Shown here: positions 36,788 to 63,162 of the stretch, piece after piece
Numbering within the stretch: position 1 is the first letter of the stretch
How the letters are laid out: each line of letters starts with the position of its first letter
Assembly (NCBI RefSeq): GCF_017848645.1
Contig: NZ_JAFEIF010000041.1
Span: 62,001-126,000, forward strand
Origin: Limnohabitans sp.
GTDB taxonomy: Bacteria > Pseudomonadota > Gammaproteobacteria > Burkholderiales > Burkholderiaceae_C
Direction: 5' to 3'
Length of the DNA: 64,000 bases
Program-made: the position numbers and the translations under genes
The notes under the pieces: generated by a model
What the model was told of the DNA's origin: nothing
Databases searched by the model: none
Seen by the model: only the letters and a program-made list of their open reading frames with translations

Positions 36788-36872
36788 GGGGCAAAACCTT
36801 CAAGACAAGGGGGCGATTTTATAGGGAGGACCCCCTGTGGGCTGGCCATCGGCTCTGCGACAATCCCAATTT

Positions 36873-37610
36873 ATGAATCACAACCCCTTTTGGACGCCCG
36901 AGGAAGTTGAATTTCTGGACCAATTTTTGTTCAGGGATGACGCTCCAGAACATTGCATGGACGTGACCATGCTCGATGGTTACCTGACTGCGGTGGTTTC
37001 TGGCCCTGAACTGATCATGCCCAGCGAGATGCTGCGCTGGGTCTGGGACACCGAAAACGGGCAAGAAGGCGCTCATTTCAAAGACCAGGCCGAAGCCGAA
37101 AAGGTCATGGGGCTGATCATGAAGCAATGGAACGCCATTGCACAAACATTGACCGAGTTGCCCGAGCTTTATGAGCCTCAAATTTACGAGCGTGAATTGG
37201 ACGATGGAACCCATGTGCCGATCATTGATGAGTGGTGCATGGGCTACCACCACGGCATCAGCATTGGTGGTAAAGCTTGGGACACCTTAATGCTGGAACA
37301 ACCAGAACTGCTGAGCACGGTGCTGTTGTATGGTTCTCCAGATGGCTGGGCTGCCTTGGAGCGCTTGAATCAGGACGATTCCGAACACCAATCCGCAGCG
37401 GACGGCTTGGGCGACACAGTCCGCCAAGTGCACGCTTATTGGCTGGTCCAACGCAGACAACAAAAAGTCAGCGGCCAAGTGCAGAGCCCCATTCGTGGCG
37501 CCAACACCCCGCTCCAGCCCGTGCGGCGCGATGGCCCTAAGCTGGGTCGAAATGATCCCTGCCACTGCGGCAGCGGACGCAAGTACAAGCACTGTCACGG
37601 GGCGAATTGA
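36873..37610 (+). CDS. UPF0149/YecA-like protein with C-terminal SEC-C zinc motif
   Basis: [35 protein letters not shown] and C-terminal [19 protein letters not shown]. Confidence 0.85.
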
Positions 37611-37640
37611 GCGATTGCCTGAACGCACGGAAGGAAAGAC

Positions 37641-39035
37641 ATGCACCACCTCATCAACTTCAAAAATTTCTCGGATGCCCAGATTGAGTTGTTAAACCCA
37701 GTGACATTGCTCATTGGGCGCAACGGGGCCGGCAAGAGCAATGTGATTGAAGGCGTAGAGCTCTTAGCCGAATTGGCGCAAGGGCGGTCCTTGCATGAAA
37801 TCAGCGACGTGGGTCGCGGCGGAGGCAGCACATTTGAAATTCGGGGGGGGTTGAGGAATTGCCCTCGAAGAGAGCATGCGGGTTATGACCCGATCAATGA
37901 ATTGATAGATCCTGGGCAACTGACATTGAAGTTCACCGCGCATGTCAAAGGTCTGCCTGTCGAGTACACCATCAGTGTCGCCGCAGGCAATTCACCTCAC
38001 ATCGTTGAAGAGAGACTGATTTGGGGCGAGCGAACGCTTTTTGCAACAGCGGGACGATTTACCCGTGAAAGTGACGACATCATTCAGGTCCAATTTGATA
38101 ATTTCGCAAAGGGTAGCAAGAAGCCCATCCGTGCATTGACGGCGCAGGTTTCAACTTTGTCGCGGTATGAAACATTGCCGACATCCAATAACAAGACGTC
38201 GGATCAAGCTTTGTTCGTAGTGAATGGCATCCGTAACCATTTAAAACATGCCTATGTTTTCGATCCGCACCCCAAGCGCATGCGTGACTACGAAAACATT
38301 GGCCAAACCCAGCTTTTCCGTGACGGGGCAAATTTGGCTTCGGTGCTTTATGGTTTGAAGCTATTGGCTGATACGGATGTTTCACCAGAAGATTTGAAAA
38401 AGAATCCTATGGTGTCAGTTGTTCGGCAACACAATGCGAGAGCATCATTCGATTTGATTTTGCAGAGAATTCGGCAATTGCCAGAGGACTCTTTCACGGA
38501 TTTTGTTTTCGAAAAAACCAGTTTGGGCGAGGTCGGTTTGGGTTTTCGATACAGCGATCAATCGGTGCTCAGTTCGCGCCAAATGTCAGACGGCACATTG
38601 CGAGCCTTGGCCATCTTGACGGCCTTGGAAACTGTGCCAACAGGCTCACGTTTGGTTGTTGAAGAAATTGACAATGGCATCCACCCAGCCCGCGTAAAGG
38701 TGCTCATGGACGCTGTCTGGGAGACCGCAGAGCGTCGCAAGCTCAATGTATTGGCCACCACACACAACCCCGCCACCCTTGATCAACTCAGTGATGAGCA
38801 AATCAAATCGGTGGTGTTGTGCTTCTATGACCCCGCTGTGGGCGCATCCCGGTTGCTCCCTATTCCAGACCTCCCGGCTTCTGAGTCAATGCTGGAGCAA
38901 GGGCGTTTGGGGGAGTTGATGACCCAGCAGGTGCTGGAAAAACACGTGCAACCGGGCTTTGCTGAACAGCGAGCCGAGCGCGGATTGCAATGGCTCCAAA
39001 AAATTCAAGAGGCCAACAGAAAGTTTGTGCTGTGA
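37641..39035 (+). CDS. AAA family ATPase (ABC/SMC-like, AAA_21 type)
   Basis: LIGRNGAGKSNVIEGVELLAELA (Walker A), SSRQMSDGTLRALAILTAL (signature), LVVEEIDNGIHPARV (Walker B), TTHNPATLDQL. Confidence 0.88.
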   Translation: MHHLINFKNFSDAQIELLNPVTLLIGRNGAGKSNVIEGVELLAELAQGRSLHEISDVGRGGGSTFEIRGGLRNCPRREHAGYDPINELIDPGQLTLKFTAHVKGLPVEYTISVAAGNSPHIVEERLIWGERTLFATAGRFTRESDDIIQVQFDNFAKGSKKPIRALTAQVSTLSRYETLPTSNNKTSDQALFVVNGIRNHLKHAYVFDPHPKRMRDYENIGQTQLFRDGANLASVLYGLKLLADTDVSPEDLKKNPMVSVVRQHNARASFDLILQRIRQLPEDSFTDFVFEKTSLGEVGLGFRYSDQSVLSSRQMSDGTLRALAILTALETVPTGSRLVVEEIDNGIHPARVKVLMDAVWETAERRKLNVLATTHNPATLDQLSDEQIKSVVLCFYDPAVGASRLLPIPDLPASESMLEQGRLGELMTQQVLEKHVQPGFAEQRAERGLQWLQKIQEANRKFVL

Positions 39036-39592
39036 GCAAGCAGGCCAAATCCAATCCATCGGTGAGTGTTGTGCGCTTGATTGTGGTGGACACTTCTTAT
39101 TTGTTAGAACTGTTTCAAGTGCCCGATTGCAGCAGTGATCGCGCTTACGTCCCGATTTTTCAACGGTTTGAAAATGCCCGACGTATGACCGATCAGTTGC
39201 AGGTGCCTTTGCCTGTTTTGTTTGAGTTGGGTAACCATGTCGCAGATGTGAAAAATGGACAAGAGAGAAGACGCTTGTCCGCCATGTTGGTGGAGACCGT
39301 AGACATCTGGCTCTCGGGCGAAACACCTTTGACGATTGTCTCGTCCATGAACGATGCCAGAACCGTTCAGGACTTCCGTGATGCGGTCACGGGATTGACC
39401 CAAGAATTTAAAACCTTGGCCCCTGATCGCCAAGGTTTGACCAATGCGGCCATTGCACTGGAAGCCAAAAAATTGCGTGACAAGCACAAAAACAGCTCAT
39501 TGAAAACATACCTGGTTCACATCTGGACCACCGACAAAAAATTAAAAGCACTTGAACCCGACGCCGAGGCCAATGCCTTCGTTGGTGTTTGA
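39032..39592 (+). CDS. PIN-like domain protein (putative nuclease), GTGA overlap with the upstream ATPase
   Basis: LIVVDTSYLLELF N-terminal Asp motif, conserved FELGNHVADVK, C-terminal IWTTDKKLKALEPDA; GTG 39032 overlaps the ATPase stop at 39033-39035. Confidence 0.65.
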   Translation: MSKQAKSNPSVSVVRLIVVDTSYLLELFQVPDCSSDRAYVPIFQRFENARRMTDQLQVPLPVLFELGNHVADVKNGQERRRLSAMLVETVDIWLSGETPLTIVSSMNDARTVQDFRDAVTGLTQEFKTLAPDRQGLTNAAIALEAKKLRDKHKNSSLKTYLVHIWTTDKKLKALEPDAEANAFVGV

Positions 39593-39613
39593 TGCTGTGC
39601 TGAAAGAAAACCT

Positions 39614-41515
39614 ATGCCCGAAATCGTCTTCAAAGGCAAAGAATATGTGTACAACCACCACCTGACAGTGCCTTATCGGCCGCTGGTGGTGGACAAGGCC
39701 AAAGGGATCGGGCCGGGGGACTTGAACAGCAGCCTGGTCATTCACGGGGACAACCTGCACGCGCTCAAGGCCTTGCTGCCGCGCTATGCGGGCAAGGTGG
39801 ATTTGGTGTTCATTGACCCGCCTTACAACACCGGCAACGAGGGCTGGTGCTACAGCGACGGGGTGAACAGCCCCATCATGAAAGAGTGGCTGAGCACCAA
39901 CCCGGTGGACGGCGAGGACATGCTGCGGCACGACAAGTGGCTGTGCATGATGTGGCCGCGTCTGGTTCTGCTGCGTGAGCTGATGGCGGACAACGGCTCG
40001 ATCTGGATCACGCTGGATGACAACGAGGTGCACCACGCCCGTGACATGCTGGACGAAATTTTGGGTGCTGATAATTTTGTGGCGACTTGCATTTGGCAGA
40101 AGAATTACGCCCCCAAGGGAACAGCTCAGTTTTTCAGCGAAGACCATGACTATGTACTGGTCTATGCCAAAGACAAGAAGATTTGGCGGCCGAATTTGTT
40201 GGAACGCACCGAGGACATGGATGCTCGCTATTCCAATGCCGATAACGACAAGAATGGCCCTTGGAAGTCGAGCGATTTGTCGGCTCGTAACTTTTACAGC
40301 GAAGGCACTTACTCGATTGTTTGCCCAAGCGGGCGGGTGATTGATGGCCCCCCGCCGGGAAATTACTGGCGCGTCAAAGAATCTAAATTCAAAGAAATGG
40401 ACGCTGAAGGTCGTATTTGGTGGGGTGAGTTTGGAAACAATGTGCCATCTATCAAGCGTTATCTTTCCGAAGTCAAACAAGGCCGCACCCCCCAAACCCT
40501 CTGGTTTTACGATGAAGTCGGTCACACCCAAGACGCCAAGAAAACTCTGATCGAAATGGGCATGCTCAAGGGCGAAGAGTCCACCATCACGCCCAAGCCG
40601 GTGGCTTTGCTGGAGCGCATTTTGGAGCTGGCCAGCCATCCCGAATCCATCGTGCTCGACAGCTTTGCCGGCAGTGCCACCACCGCCCACGCCGTGCTCA
40701 AAGCTAACGCCAAAGACAACGGCAACCGCCAGTTCATTCTTGTGGAGGGCGAGGACTATGCCGATCGCCTGACCGCCGAGCGGGTGCGCCGCGCCATCCA
40801 GGGTTATGCCTGGGTGGGCACGCAGCGCGAAACGCTGCTGGAAGAAAAGATCAATTTCACCCAGTTCAAAAAAGCCGCCGACTGGTTGGCCAAGGTCGAG
40901 GCGATCAAACAGCGCGAGGGTTTTGTTGAGGAATCGACACAACTCACACTGCTGCGACCTGGGGCAGAAATTCAAATGGGCATCCCTATGCAAGATGCGA
41001 CATTGAAAAATACAGGTCAAAAGCGTTTTGACAAGATCAACGTGGAGCTGAAAGACGGCTTGCTGCGGGTGGAGGGCGAAAAGAAAGTCTCTGAACGCGC
41101 CGAAGGCCTGGGCGGCGAGTTCACCTATTGCACGCTGGGCGATCCGCTCAACATCGAGAAGATGCTGTCCGGCGAAAACTTGCCCGCGTTTGAGGCCTTG
41201 GGGGCCTGGCTGTTCCACACCGCCACGGGCGGCACCTTGCCACCCACCCCCAAAAAAGCCCCGCGCTTTTATCTGGGCGAGGCGGCCGATGCCCATGTTT
41301 GGCTGGTCTATGAGCCGAACCTGGCCTTCCTCAAGTCGACCGAGGCGGCGCTCAACCTGAGCCGGGCGCAGGCCTTTGCCCAGTGGGGCGCGGACAAGGG
41401 CGATGGCAAAAAACACCTGGTGTTTGCCCCGGCCAAGTATTTGAGCAACAAGCAATTGGCCGAGAACCGCATGGACTTTGCGGCGCTGCCCTTTGCTTTG
41501 CTCAGGGGGTGGTGA
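39614..41515 (+). CDS. mod: Site-specific DNA-methyltransferase, Type III Mod-like (beta-class)
   Basis: LVFIDPPYNTGNEG (DPPY catalytic motif), SIWITLDDNEVHHARDMLDEI, central target-recognition region, ESIVLDSFAGSATTAHAVL (AdoMet motif). Confidence 0.92.
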   Translation: MPEIVFKGKEYVYNHHLTVPYRPLVVDKAKGIGPGDLNSSLVIHGDNLHALKALLPRYAGKVDLVFIDPPYNTGNEGWCYSDGVNSPIMKEWLSTNPVDGEDMLRHDKWLCMMWPRLVLLRELMADNGSIWITLDDNEVHHARDMLDEILGADNFVATCIWQKNYAPKGTAQFFSEDHDYVLVYAKDKKIWRPNLLERTEDMDARYSNADNDKNGPWKSSDLSARNFYSEGTYSIVCPSGRVIDGPPPGNYWRVKESKFKEMDAEGRIWWGEFGNNVPSIKRYLSEVKQGRTPQTLWFYDEVGHTQDAKKTLIEMGMLKGEESTITPKPVALLERILELASHPESIVLDSFAGSATTAHAVLKANAKDNGNRQFILVEGEDYADRLTAERVRRAIQGYAWVGTQRETLLEEKINFTQFKKAADWLAKVEAIKQREGFVEESTQLTLLRPGAEIQMGIPMQDATLKNTGQKRFDKINVELKDGLLRVEGEKKVSERAEGLGGEFTYCTLGDPLNIEKMLSGENLPAFEALGAWLFHTATGGTLPPTPKKAPRFYLGEAADAHVWLVYEPNLAFLKSTEAALNLSRAQAFAQWGADKGDGKKHLVFAPAKYLSNKQLAENRMDFAALPFALLRGW

Positions 41516-41516
41516 A

Positions 41517-41915
41517 ATGGCTTTTTCTCAGAGTACGAAGCTGCAGTTAGACAAGTTTACGCAAGCCCTGGCGACGCTGAAAGAAACGGCTCAGGACAGT
41601 GAAGACCGCAAGACACGCGATTCGCTGTTGCTGCGCTTTGTCTACACGTTTGAAATGGCTTGGCAAGCCATGCGGGCCGTGCTGCAGGACAAGGGGGATG
41701 TGGAAACCCCGAGGGTGGCGTTTGCCGCGTTGGAGACGGCATTCAAGATGCGCTACATCACTGATGAGTCCTTGTGGGATCGCTTGCGCAAAGGGCGCAA
41801 TGGGGTGAGCCATGCCTACGACGAAGACATGGCCATCGGCCTGGCCGCCATGGTGCGCTTGGATGCCATCCCGGAGTTCGAGCGTGTGCTGGCGCATCTG
41901 CAGGCGCAAGCATGA
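41517..41915 (+). CDS. HEPN-fold protein of the HepT / HI0074 'nucleotidyltransferase substrate-binding' type
   Basis: LQLDKFTQALATLKET..RDSLLLRFVYTFEMAWQAMRAVL, RNGVSHAY = RX4HXY motif (41796-41819); partner MNT domain starts in the overlapping ATGA. Confidence 0.85.
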   Translation: MAFSQSTKLQLDKFTQALATLKETAQDSEDRKTRDSLLLRFVYTFEMAWQAMRAVLQDKGDVETPRVAFAALETAFKMRYITDESLWDRLRKGRNGVSHAYDEDMAIGLAAMVRLDAIPEFERVLAHLQAQA

Positions 41916-44900
41916 CGGCCGTGGTTTCCAATGCGGTGATCGACTTTGGCTTGGGGCCGGAACTCACGCTGCAACTGCATGAGGTGTTTGGACGCTTTGT
42001 GGGGTTGGAGCGCGTGTGGGTGTATGGATCGCGCGCCCGGGGCGACCATCGCCCGGCGTCGGACATTGATCTGATGGCGGATGCGCCCGATTGGAGCGCA
42101 CAGGACTTCACCGCGCTTTGGGCGGCTGTGGACGATTTGCGTTCGCTCAGAGGCATTGATTTGAGCCATTGGCAATCGACTTTGAGCGATGGCTTCAGGC
42201 AGCAGGTGGAAAAAGACCGGCAGGTCTTTTGGCAGCCGCGCCGAGCCGCGGTGAGCTTGCCCCGTGCACTGGGGTTTGACGATCTGAAAGACTTTCAGGC
42301 CAAGTCACTGCTCAAGCTCGATGCCTATTTGGCCGAGTTGCGCAGCGCCCGCGCCGATTCTGATCAGGCTTTGGCGGCCATGGCGCAGGTCAAGGCCATG
42401 GAGAAGATGAGCGATGCCAAGCAGTCCCTGGCCGATTTCCCCAAGTCGGCTTGGCAGGCCTTGCACGACGCGCGTGCTTTGCCAGAGGCCTATGCCGAGC
42501 GCCCGCATTCCAGCCGCTTTGACGGGGCTGGCCGGGCCATTCCGAATGTATGCCTGAAGGTGCCCACGGGCGGCGGCAAGACGCTGCTGGCTGCGGCCAG
42601 CGTGGGAAAGGTGTTTGAGGGGTATTTGCGCCGGTCTACCGGCCTGGTGCTGTGGGTGGTGCCCAACGAGGCGATTTACCGCCAGACCCTCAAGACGCTG
42701 TCCAATCGCGACCACCCTTACCGGCAAATGCTCAACGTGGTCGGGGCAGGGCGGGTGAAGATTTTGGAGAAAGACTCGCCGCTGTCGCGCCTGGATGTGG
42801 AAAGCCACTTGTGCGTGATGGTGCTGATGCTGGCTTCGGCGGCGCGGCAGTCCAAGGAGACGCTGCGATTTTTCCGGGACCGGGGCAATGTGCAGGGCTT
42901 TTTGCCGTTCGAGGACGACATCGAGGCCCATTGGGCCTTGCTGGCCGATGTGCCCAACCTGGATGTGTATGGCAGTGTTTGGGCTGACGGATCGGGCAAG
43001 GATTCGGGCGGTATGCAGGCGCGCCAAAAGGGCAGCATTGTCAAAAGCTCGTTGGGCAATGTGATGCGGCTTGTGCGCCCGATGGTGGTGATTGACGAAG
43101 GGCACCACGGCTACACCGACAACGCTTTGCGCACCATTGACGGGTTCAACCCGTCCTTCATGCTGGAGTTGTCGGCCACGCCGCGTGTGGTAGAGGCGGG
43201 CGCGTCAGGCAGCAAAGCGGCGGGTGCGGTGTCGGGTTCCAACATTTTGGTGGACGTGCGCGGCACCGATCTGGATGCCGCCGAGATGATCAAGCTGCCC
43301 ATTCATGTGGACGTGCGCGCTTGGGCCGACTGGCAAAGCTGCTTATCGGCCAGCGTGGACCAACTCAATGCGCTGGCCCGACAGGCCGAGGTGCTGCAGG
43401 GCGAGACGGCGCGCTACATTCGGCCGATTTTGCTGGTGCAGGTGGAGCGCACGGGCAAGGACCAGATCGATTCAGGCTTCATCCATGCCCAGCATGTGCG
43501 CGAGTTTTTGGCGCAGATGGGCTTTGCCGAGACCCAAATTCGCGAAAAAACCAGCGACAAGGACGAATTGGGCGACGAGGATTTGCTCTCGCCCACCTCG
43601 CAGGTGCGGGTGATCATCACCAAGCAGGCCTTGCAAGAGGGCTGGGATTGCCCCTTTGCCTATGTGCTGTGTTCGCTGGCAGCCAGCAAGGGCAAGCGGG
43701 CGCTCACGCAATTGGTGGGGCGGATTTTGCGGCTGCCCCATGTGGCCAAAACGGGGCATGAAGCGCTGGACGCTTGTTATGTGTTTTGCCATGACATTCA
43801 GACCGGCGAGGTGGTCAAGGCCATCAAGCAGTCGCTGGAGACTGAAGGCATGGGCGACTTGGCCATGGCGGTGCGCGGCAATGGTGGTTCGGGGCCGGAT
43901 GCCCCGCAGGTGCGCCAATTGACGCGGCGCGAGGGACTGGCGCATTTGCGTTTGTTTTTGCCCACCGTGACATGGGCCGAGCCTGGCCAGCCCCGGCGCA
44001 AGCTGGTGTACGAGAGCGATGTGCTGGCCCGCGTGCCCTGGCAAGACCTGAACCCCGATACCTTGGCGGTGGGCTGGAAACCCAGTCAGTCGCTGCGCAT
44101 GTCGGGCAGCGAGGCCCGCTTGATGGTGGATTTGACGGTGTTGCAAGACGTGCAGGCTCCGTTGCGCCGGGCGCGCAGCGATTCGGCCGAAGCCCTGACT
44201 TTGGACCGTGGGCAGCTGGTACGGGCTTTGGTCGATATTGCCCCCAATCCCTGGCTGGTGTGGGGCTGGGTCGATGCGGTGGTGCAGCGCTGTTTGCAGA
44301 CCTGGGCCGAATCGGCGGTGGCAGCGTCGGCGGCCACGTTGATTGAGCGGTTGCGGGTTGAGCTGCAGGCCTGGCGTGACGAGATGGCACAGCAGGTGTT
44401 TGAGGGGTTGACGGCACAAGGGCGCATCGAGTTTCGTTTGCGGGCGGATGCCACCGATTACGAATTGCCCAGCCACGACGAATGGCTGCAAACCGGCAAG
44501 GCCCACAAGCTCACCCGCAGCGATGGTTTGACCGATGTACAAAAGAGTCTGCTTGTGCCTGCCTTGCAAACGCCCGATATGAATGACTTTGAGGCGGCTT
44601 TTGCAGGCTATCTGGACGAGCAGGCCGCCTTGCGCTGGTGGCACCGCAATGTGGCCAAAACCCAATACGGCTTGCAAGGCTGGCGCAGGCACAAGGTTTA
44701 CCCAGACTTCGTGTTCGGCTTTTTGAGCGAGGGCAACGAAGCCCGCCTGGTGCTCATGGAAACCAAGGGCCTGCACCTGGACAACGAGGACACGGACTAC
44801 AAACAAGCGCTTTTGGACCGGCTGACAGAGGCTTTTTGCGATGAACGCTTTGCGCAGGCGGGTGACTTGGCGCTGGAACAAGATGGCCGCACGCAACTCG

Positions 44901-44968
44901 AATGCGGCTTAGTTTTTGACCGCGCATGGCGTGCGGACATCGACCGACGCTTTTTTGGGCACAACTGA
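41912..44968 (+). CDS. res: Fusion protein: N-terminal MNT-type nucleotidyltransferase domain plus Type III restriction Res subunit (DEAD-like helicase plus PD-(D/E)XK nuclease)
   Basis: One uninterrupted 1018-aa frame: GSRARGDHRPASDID (GSX10DXD, 42026-42070); Res part PTGGGKT (42563-42583), DEGHH (43094-43108), LSATP, and C-terminal YPDFVFGF..LVLMETKG. Confidence 0.9.
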   Translation: MTAVVSNAVIDFGLGPELTLQLHEVFGRFVGLERVWVYGSRARGDHRPASDIDLMADAPDWSAQDFTALWAAVDDLRSLRGIDLSHWQSTLSDGFRQQVEKDRQVFWQPRRAAVSLPRALGFDDLKDFQAKSLLKLDAYLAELRSARADSDQALAAMAQVKAMEKMSDAKQSLADFPKSAWQALHDARALPEAYAERPHSSRFDGAGRAIPNVCLKVPTGGGKTLLAAASVGKVFEGYLRRSTGLVLWVVPNEAIYRQTLKTLSNRDHPYRQMLNVVGAGRVKILEKDSPLSRLDVESHLCVMVLMLASAARQSKETLRFFRDRGNVQGFLPFEDDIEAHWALLADVPNLDVYGSVWADGSGKDSGGMQARQKGSIVKSSLGNVMRLVRPMVVIDEGHHGYTDNALRTIDGFNPSFMLELSATPRVVEAGASGSKAAGAVSGSNILVDVRGTDLDAAEMIKLPIHVDVRAWADWQSCLSASVDQLNALARQAEVLQGETARYIRPILLVQVERTGKDQIDSGFIHAQHVREFLAQMGFAETQIREKTSDKDELGDEDLLSPTSQVRVIITKQALQEGWDCPFAYVLCSLAASKGKRALTQLVGRILRLPHVAKTGHEALDACYVFCHDIQTGEVVKAIKQSLETEGMGDLAMAVRGNGGSGPDAPQVRQLTRREGLAHLRLFLPTVTWAEPGQPRRKLVYESDVLARVPWQDLNPDTLAVGWKPSQSLRMSGSEARLMVDLTVLQDVQAPLRRARSDSAEALTLDRGQLVRALVDIAPNPWLVWGWVDAVVQRCLQTWAESAVAASAATLIERLRVELQAWRDEMAQQVFEGLTAQGRIEFRLRADATDYELPSHDEWLQTGKAHKLTRSDGLTDVQKSLLVPALQTPDMNDFEAAFAGYLDEQAALRWWHRNVAKTQYGLQGWRRHKVYPDFVFGFLSEGNEARLVLMETKGLHLDNEDTDYKQALLDRLTEAFCDERFAQAGDLALEQDGRTQLECGLVFDRAWRADIDRRFFGHN

Positions 44969-45011
44969 AGCCCGTTAGACTTCAAACCAATTTTTTTCAA
45001 TAAAGAGACCC

Positions 45012-61848: not shown

Positions 61849-63162
61849 ATGAGCACCGAAGCGACGCTGATCAAACAACACCTGATCGACCCGGAAATCT
61901 GCATCCGCTGCAACACCTGCGAAGCGATCTGCCCCGTGGGCGCCATCACCCACGACTCGCTCAACTACGTGGTCAAAGCCGACATCTGCAACGGCTGCAT
62001 GGACTGCATCTCGCCATGCCCGACAGGCTCGATTGACAACTGGCGCATGGTGCCCAAAGTCCGGGCTTACAGCATCGAAGAACAACTCAAGTGGGACGAA
62101 CTGCCAGCTGAGTTGAGTGCTGAAGAACTGGCCGCTGCAGGTGGGGGTGATGCCGCTGTCGCTGAACAAGAAGCGCAAGCCGCTGTGCAAGCTGCCGCCT
62201 CTTCTTCATCCGCCGCCAGCACCGCAGTGGCTTCGGGTTTCAACTCCGCCCAATTTGGCGCGACCATCCCCCCTTGGTCGGCCGCCCACGCCTACACCAA
62301 CCTGTATGGCCCCAAAGCCGCCGAGAAAACCATCACCGCCACCGTCACCGGCAACCTGCGCGTGACCGAAGTCGGCCAACAAGACGGCCAGAAAGACTAC
62401 GACACGCACCACATCGTGCTTGACTTCGGCGGCATGCCTTTCCCGGTGCTCGAAGGCCAGTCGATCGGCATCATCCCGCCTGGTGTGGATGCCAAAGGCA
62501 AGCCGCACCATGCCCGTCAGTATTCGATCGCCAGCCCCCGCAACGGCGAACGCCCGGGCCACAACAACCTGTCGCTGACCATCAAGCGCGTGCTCGAAGA
62601 CCACGACGGTCAACCCGTTCGCGGTGTTGGCTCCAACTACATGTGCGACCTGAAGGTGGGTGACAAGGTTCAGGTGATCGGGCCGTTTGGCGCGAGCTTC
62701 CTGATGCCCAACCACCCCAAGAGCAACATCATCATGATCTGCACCGGCACCGGTTCAGCCCCCATGCGCGCCATGACCGAATGGCGTCGCCGCTTGCGGG
62801 CCAGCGGCAAGTTCGAGGGTGGCAAACTGATGCTGTTCTTCGGTGCCCGCACGCCTGCCGAGTTGCCTTACTTTGGCCCGCTGAACAACTTGCCAAAGGA
62901 CTTCATCGACATCGAATTCGCCTTCTCGCGCGAAGTGGGCAAACCCAAACGTTATGTGCAGGACGCCATGCGCGACCGTGCGGCCGATATCGCGGCCCAG
63001 CTCAAGGACCCGAACACCTGTTTTTATGTGTGCGGCCTCAAAAGCATGGAAGAGGGCGTGGTGATGGCATTGCGCGACATCGCACAGAACGCCGGGCTCG
63101 ATTGGGATACCATCGGCGCGGCGCTGAAAAAAGAAGGCCGTTTGCACCTCGAAACCTACTGA
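61849..63162 (+). CDS. boxA: Benzoyl-CoA 2,3-epoxidase reductase subunit BoxA (ferredoxin plus FAD/NAD(P) reductase)
   Basis: Two 4Fe-4S motifs [16 protein letters not shown] and [19 protein letters not shown]; reductase domain [24 protein letters not shown]. Confidence 0.95.

Follow-up and report, generated by a model that had tools for sequence, protein, structure and literature searches.

A Type III restriction operon in which a HEPN gene precedes Res fused to an antitoxin-like MNT domain

Can a restriction enzyme carry the antidote to a toxin encoded in its own operon? The question is raised by a Limnohabitans sp. contig (NZ_JAFEIF010000041.1), of which we analysed positions 62,001 to 126,000. 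This stretch of 64,000 nucleotides is called the window below. It contains a restriction-modification (R-M) operon in the order mod, HEPN, MNT::Res, where the last gene fuses a nucleotidyltransferase (MNT) to the restriction subunit, Res. Because mod (an N6-methyltransferase) and res (an SF2 helicase with a C-terminal PD-(D/E)xK nuclease) share the operon, the R-M system is of Type III. We think it probable that this operon has a built-in type VII HEPN/MNT module. The antitoxin would be the N-terminal domain of Res and the outcome addiction or backup suicide.

The fusion gene is one uninterrupted open reading frame from the ATG at 41912 to the stop at 44968 (1018 amino acids), as a sequence-only reading of the window had stated. 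Pfam calls Polbeta (residues 23-106, E 1.6e-8), NTP_transf_2 (29-81, 1.8e-6) and ResIII (4.5e-12). The NCBIfam MntA_antitoxin match is below cutoff, at 30.2 against 60 bits. The complete GSX10DXD motif that the same reading placed at the N-terminus is present. The third aspartate is D83, and all known MNT catalytic residues occur in the sequence. Alignments and PADLOC REase_III (PDLC03653, residues 124-992, E 7.4e-186) likewise bear out the Res motifs said to follow: Walker A (217-224), DEGHH (395-399), SATP (421-424) and PD..ExK, whose nuclease residues D932, E950 and K952 are invariant in Res alignments. It is thus confirmed that an intact MNT domain is joined to a complete Type III Res subunit.

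Could the join be trivial? A sequencing error or frameshift linking two genes is ruled out, because the in-frame fusion is common to 19 species. Unfused Res homologues, which share 36-49% identity with the fused protein across alignments A1 and A2, begin at the equivalent of residue ~124, mostly right after mod. Hence, MNT is not an ordinary part of Res, an outcome that the sequence-only reading had allowed for. No start codon near the MNT/Res junction is conserved among the fusions, and one member (L048) has none there at all. An internal Res start is therefore disfavoured, and nothing points to a product made of Res alone.

The closest solved sequence relatives of the MNT domain include HI0073 and the Legionella MNT antitoxin. 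In the AlphaFold model of the fusion (mean predicted local distance difference test score, pLDDT, of 77) the MNT domain reaches ~90 and Res is mostly confident; the linker, residues 111-123, falls below 50. Foldseek superposes the MNT model on the Legionella antitoxin 8XEO with a root mean square deviation of 1.2 Å over 98 columns and a template modelling (TM) score, by target, of 0.92. The top Foldseek match of the whole model is EcoP15I Res (4ZCF_C), also the only PDB match by sequence. Hence, both halves are recognised by fold as well as by Pfam, the two checks proposed with the sequence-only reading. Because MNT superposes on 8XEO and is confidently modelled beside a low-pLDDT linker, we predict that it forms a domain of its own, antitoxin-like and held to Res by a short, flexible linker.

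Is the neighbouring gene a fitting partner? Class I HEPN/MNT pairs place a HEPN of PF01934 or PF08780 beside an MNT of PF01909, with the signature RX4HXY plus GSX10DXD (PMC7641770). In Shewanella and an archaeon, changing GS to AT, DXD to EXE, or the tyrosine impairs AMPylation and neutralisation (PMC7641770). The HEPN/MNT pair of Legionella pneumophila consists of a toxin and a poly-AMPylating antitoxin (PMC11586414). In the window, HEPN is a stand-alone 132-amino acid protein, and the 3' end of its gene overlaps the fusion ATG by 4 nt (ATGA). Its closest solved sequence relatives include the Legionella HEPN toxin, HI0074 and TTHA0048. The AF2 model (pLDDT 91.9) matches the Legionella toxin, AMPylated form included, with TM 0.77-0.84 (8YUF, 8XDJ, 8XEH), and also matches HI0074 (1JOG). 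Family pairing, both motifs and the folds of solved pairs consequently make the window pair a predicted member of class I.

How widespread is the arrangement? We found at least 19 MNT::Res fusions including that of the window, one per species, in Burkholderiales and Lysobacteraceae. At least 12 came from a scan of GTDB-species contigs and six more from whole-genome searches; G701, G773 and G788 duplicate L100, L047 and L046 and were counted once. Nearly all of those 12 are among the best matches listed from the contig scan. An evenly drawn sample of the family to which the window belongs contained 8 carriers of the fusion among 401 genomes, counting the window's own. The sequence-only reading had asked whether a HEPN gene is always adjacent, and one of PF08780 type lies directly upstream in 19/19. 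It directly follows mod in 17 of these loci; in L212 two extra genes intervene, and the L213 contig begins just ahead of HEPN. GSX10DXD and the acceptor tyrosine occur in all 19 loci and RX4HXY in 18. In a tree of Res alone, the fusions form a single clade (SH-aLRT 100) with one change of state. L052, which is truncated short of the MNT region, falls within this clade. The tree indicates that the Type III fusion arose once and was then retained.

We next considered whether HEPN and MNT evolve together. Across the 19 loci, their divergences correlate (Mantel r 0.37, p 0.0008), also when conditioned on Res (partial r 0.37, p 0.0004), and no correlation with Res is seen for HEPN (p 0.15) or MNT (p 0.28). 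Three operons, L043, L202 and L051, are instructive. Their Res proteins are 92-94% identical and their Res DNA ~90%. For the pair L043/L202, HEPN and MNT are 96% and 94% identical. In L051, DNA identity falls to 15-70% between the HEPN start (L043:5230) and the MNT/Res junction (LKRFQ, L043:6029), then returns to ~90%. Synonymous divergence (dS) between L043 and L051 is 1.37 for HEPN and 2.34 for MNT against 0.35 for Res. This excess indicates that a distantly related allele was swapped in, and speaks against relaxed selection. The nearest relative of the L051 cassette is L044 (HEPN 77%, MNT 62%). Given this co-variation apart from Res and the edges of the L051 segment, HEPN and MNT are exchanged as one cognate unit, across the boundary between gene and domain. 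Both are under purifying selection in three of the closer pairs, with dN/dS of 0.06-0.17. The structural half of the earlier proposal, a restriction subunit with an antitoxin-like domain, is hence well supported by catalytic residues, solved relatives, invariable HEPN adjacency and HEPN-MNT co-variation. The only further swapped block in the trio lies within the otherwise ~90% identical mod genes (L043:3826-4430), in a putative target-recognition region, and would represent a domain swap.

Does fusion to an R-M subunit recur? A trail beginning at match L020 led to seven Type I loci of the form hsdM, HEPN (RX4HXY), MNT::HsdS, five of them from one sample of 369 genomes. In each, MNT with GSX10DXD is at the HsdS N-terminus. 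We found hsdM in five of the seven stretches, downstream in L279, and did not see it in the stretch examined for L282 or L289. The latter is Zymomonas mobilis plasmid pZMOB01, encoding WP_014466388 (HI0074 family), WP_014466389 (MNT::HsdS, annotated 'restriction endonuclease subunit S') and then HsdR. Unfused hsdM-HEPN-MNT-hsdS operons occur in L284 and in Acetobacter ascendens (L288). Since the fusion is found in both Type III Res and Type I HsdS, it has arisen convergently, at least twice, in unrelated R-M types. This bears on whether the Type III fusion is a chance read-through, joining adjacent genes with no functional coupling. A single origin on the Res tree means that inheritance alone could account for its frequency. 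However, the clade is deep, all its sampled members have kept the fusion, no internal start is conserved among them, HEPN and MNT are under purifying selection, and HsdS acquired MNT separately. We consider chance very improbable.

How might the module work? We infer that HEPN is toxic, that MNT::Res AMPylates it and what would serve as a trigger. HEPN, an RNase toxin, would be translated just ahead of MNT::Res and coupled to it. The MNT domain would add AMP to the tyrosine of RX4HXY, making HEPN harmless. The window HEPN is the sole PF08780 protein in the genome. There are five other NTP_transf_2 matches; two that we examined (L216, L217) adjoin small HEPN-like genes, as judged by eye. A different genomic partner for either component is hence disfavoured, and MNT::Res is predicted to be the sole AMPylating antitoxin. 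The cell would depend on its continuous supply. If the operon were lost, if Res were degraded, sequestered or not made (phage shut-off, anti-restriction), or if MNT were occluded, new HEPN would stay unmodified, cleave RNA and stop growth. The minimum consequence would be addiction to the R-M system. Backup abortive infection, in line with PrrC/EcoprrI, is a possible extension.

The genomic setting bears on the simpler alternative of pure addiction. Here, HEPN-MNT would stabilise a mobile R-M operon, fusion would only ensure that a deletion or frameshift removing Res also removes the antitoxin, and no phage sensing would be involved. Most of the congeners examined have metG next to mrp, with <~150 bp between them. 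The window has 8.2 kb there, and this insert contains the whole operon plus an AAA-ATPase/PDC-M07B pair. Such a placement, and the scatter of the fusion over species (8/401 family genomes), suit a mobile element kept by addiction. So do the extra genes that unfused relatives often carry between mod and res. Several of these are toxin-antitoxin pairs, including HicAB, DUF433/DUF5615 and an MNT-HEPN of PF05168 type. The mod-res position looks, from these gene orders, like a docking site for toxin-antitoxin-like modules, one of which the fusion clade made permanent. Yet addiction does not need a fusion, as the unfused HEPN-MNT pairs in Type I operons (L284, L288) illustrate. That MNT was joined more than once to a subunit in contact with phage DNA also suggests a role beyond linkage. 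Addiction and nothing else is, on balance, an unlikely account, though a serious one.

Several points weigh against a toxin guarded by Res. AMPylation is covalent, therefore toxin release needs newly made, unmodified HEPN, and Res inhibition need not quickly free HEPN that already exists. MNT is reported to be almost always 5' in MNT-HEPN dyads (PMC3710099), and here HEPN precedes MNT. The Type I fusion partner is HsdS, not the nuclease subunit, so the idea of a guarded restriction nuclease may be too narrow. Finally, in Legionella HEPN the RNase site maps to Q44/E47, an essential Mg site, and RX4H is dispensable (PMC11586414). This site marks the Legionella subtype and does not define the class. 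The window HEPN has L/V at these positions and keeps RX4HXY, which leaves its catalytic site, as judged from sequence, uncertain. In L047 the histidine of RX4HXY is lost.

Might HEPN then be a domesticated regulator? It would be a non-toxic partner or substrate-binding subunit of MNT, and restriction would be tuned by AMPylation, whether of HEPN, Mod, Res or a component of the invader. HI0073/HI0074 were at first taken for a nucleotidyltransferase in two parts, one of them a substrate-binding subunit, several MNT-linked HEPNs have been argued to be domesticated (PMC3710099), and the Q/E site of Legionella is absent from the window HEPN. Across the fusions, the Q44/E47 equivalents are Q and E in 12/19, K/E in three and other residues in the window, L046, L203 and L100. 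Nevertheless, RX4HXY persists in 18/19 and no HEPN of the 19 is without both proposed active sites: the window has RX4H without Q/E and L047 the reverse. Domesticated MNT-fused HEPNs usually lose their RNase residues (PMC3710099). Co-variation and cassette exchange also resemble toxin/antitoxin specificity. Domestication is hence distinctly improbable. The L047 HEPN (L047:7525-7962), with RX4RXY (R for H) and an intact Q/E Mg site and acceptor tyrosine, is a natural variant useful for distinguishing the two proposed active sites.

Other genes at these loci deserve mention. Directly upstream of mod (37641-39592), PADLOC marks a candidate defence pair: an AAA_21 ATPase (PDC-M07A) and PDC-M07B, a protein of 200 amino acids whose beginning is PIN-like. 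We treat the pair as a neighbour and not a system part, because we did not see it at any other fusion locus. The metG-mrp gap is also wider in L228 and L231, which suggests an insertion hotspot. No MNT::Res fusion was found among viral-contig or plasmid relatives, giving no pointer to a phage or plasmid origin, although the Type I version is on pZMOB01. Between mod and HEPN of a fusion operon, L212:6351-7585 (minus strand) holds a two-gene unit, DUF6978 plus DUF1828/DUF1829. The same unit lies between mod and res of an unfused operon (L099:6696-7933, on which the Pfam calls were made) and may be another exchangeable cargo. Right after MNT::HsdS, L248:8715-11066 encodes a 783-amino acid ATPase that by eye resembles RloC/PrrC-type ABC proteins, possibly a second guard.

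Table 1. Coordinates of features in the window and, where an L number precedes them, in related loci
Feature	Location	Strand	Evidence or setting
Insert of 8.2 kb between divergent metG and mrp/apbC	36788..45011	.	metG-mrp adjacency in congeners
mod, Type III DNA methyltransferase (DPPY, FAGS motifs)	39614..41515	+	Pfam N6_N4_Mtase 7.5e-35; PADLOC MTase_III 5.5e-192
HEPN gene of the HI0074/NTase_sub_bind family; product predicted to be a toxin and the MNT substrate	41517..41915	+	PF08780 1.6e-18; TIGR01987 5.7e-20; AF2 model
RX4HXY motif of HEPN (RNGVSHAY), presumed RNase residues and AMP-acceptor Tyr	41796..41819	+	sequence; motif 18/19, Tyr 19/19
MNT::Res fusion, 1018 aa	41912..44968	+	open reading frame; Pfam, NCBIfam and PADLOC matches
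MNT nucleotidyltransferase domain, predicted antitoxin, residues 1-111	41912..42244	+	Pfam Polbeta/NTP_transf_2; superposition on 8XEO
GSX10DXD catalytic motif (GSRARGDHRPASDID), residues 39-53	42026..42070	+	sequence; 19/19 homologous fusions
Flexible linker, residues 111-123	42242..42280	+	pLDDT <50; HEPN-MNT cassette exchange junction in relatives
Res helicase-nuclease, residues 124-1018 (Walker A, DEGH, SATP, PD..ExK)	42281..44968	+	PDLC03653; EcoP15I Res fold
DUF433/DUF5615	L056:7390-7994		mod-res gap
DUF433	L058:7780-7998		mod-res gap
RhuM	L060:6999-8090		mod-res gap
HicAB	L067:2075-2508		mod-res gap
DUF4160/DUF2442	L068:3103-3627; L077:274-815		mod-res gap (L077 by eye)
MNT-HEPN of PF05168 type	L072:460-1180		mod-res gap
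MNT::HsdS with preceding HEPN	L248:5064-8715; L279:4046-6114; L280:2364-4348; L281:2278-4304; L282:3597-5427; L283:3783-6442; L289:3-1972

At the level of sequence, the architecture, intact motifs, strict adjacency, joint exchange, purifying selection and convergence in Type I systems are observed. A wider reading, to which we give a little under an even chance, is that capture of HEPN-MNT modules has happened repeatedly in unrelated R-M types, with the antitoxin joined to Res in Type III and to HsdS in Type I. The restriction enzyme would then be the antidote in a covalent dead-man's switch, set against anti-restriction or system loss, and its toxin/antitoxin cassettes would be exchangeable, as are the target-recognition domains beside them. 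The idea of backup suicide RNases in R-M systems has so far rested largely on PrrC and gene neighbourhoods. In the loci described here, the module and the R-M system are joined covalently, through a domain fusion with at least two origins and known enzymatic antitoxin chemistry. The hypothesis that inhibiting restriction triggers the toxin is directly testable in one three-gene operon. If true, it would account for how a type VII antitoxin that acts covalently can depend on the health of an immune system, and phage anti-restriction or system loss would be converted into cell suicide. Cassette exchange between near-identical operons suggests that toxin/antitoxin specificity is itself swapped, as target recognition is.

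How does the locus compare with known systems? Known arrangements include HEPN fused to restriction helicases or nucleases, HEPN encoded in the vicinity of R-M operons, and fusions of HEPN with MNT, and R-M-linked backup suicide HEPNs have been proposed in general terms (PMC3710099). HEPN-MNT near BREX is also known (PMC12839542). No description of MNT fused to Res or HsdS was found in the parts of the literature searched, which left subscription papers and preprints outside. This agrees with the sequence-only reading, whose author knew of no such system. The locus resembles type VII HepT/MntA of Shewanella, Legionella HEPN-MNT and HI0074/HI0073 in pairing PF08780 with NTP_transf_2 and in motifs and folds. 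In those modules the antitoxin is a free small protein; here it forms the N-terminal part of a Type III Res, and the HEPN gene is upstream, inside a mod-res operon. As in EcoP15I-like Type III systems (PDLC03653), Mod and Res are complete with all motifs; the extra N-terminal MNT and the HEPN gene between mod and res set it apart.

PrrC/EcoprrI (Type Ic R-M; PMC3710099) likewise ties a HEPN-fold RNase to R-M as a proposed backup suicide. However, PrrC is an ABC-ATPase::HEPN protein held inactive by interaction with the R-M system, whereas enzymatic AMPylation by a Res domain is predicted here, for another HEPN family and a Type III system. The stand-alone HEPN of the window also lacks the ABC-ATPase fused to a C-terminal HEPN that defines PrrC/RloC, so the likeness is in proposed logic only. 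HEPN fusions to endonuclease/helicase subunits or DUF499 ATPases (PMC3710099, PMC12839542) also put a toxin-related domain on the restriction or helicase subunit and not on the methylase. In those proteins it is the toxin that is fused, whereas the window has a free toxin and a fused antitoxin. The Type I MNT::HsdS loci, such as that of pZMOB01, share an upstream HEPN and an MNT at the N-terminus of an R-M subunit, but that is the specificity subunit of an unrelated system. The locus thus combines a type VII toxin-antitoxin module with R-M, and is unusual in that the antitoxin, not the toxin, is fused.

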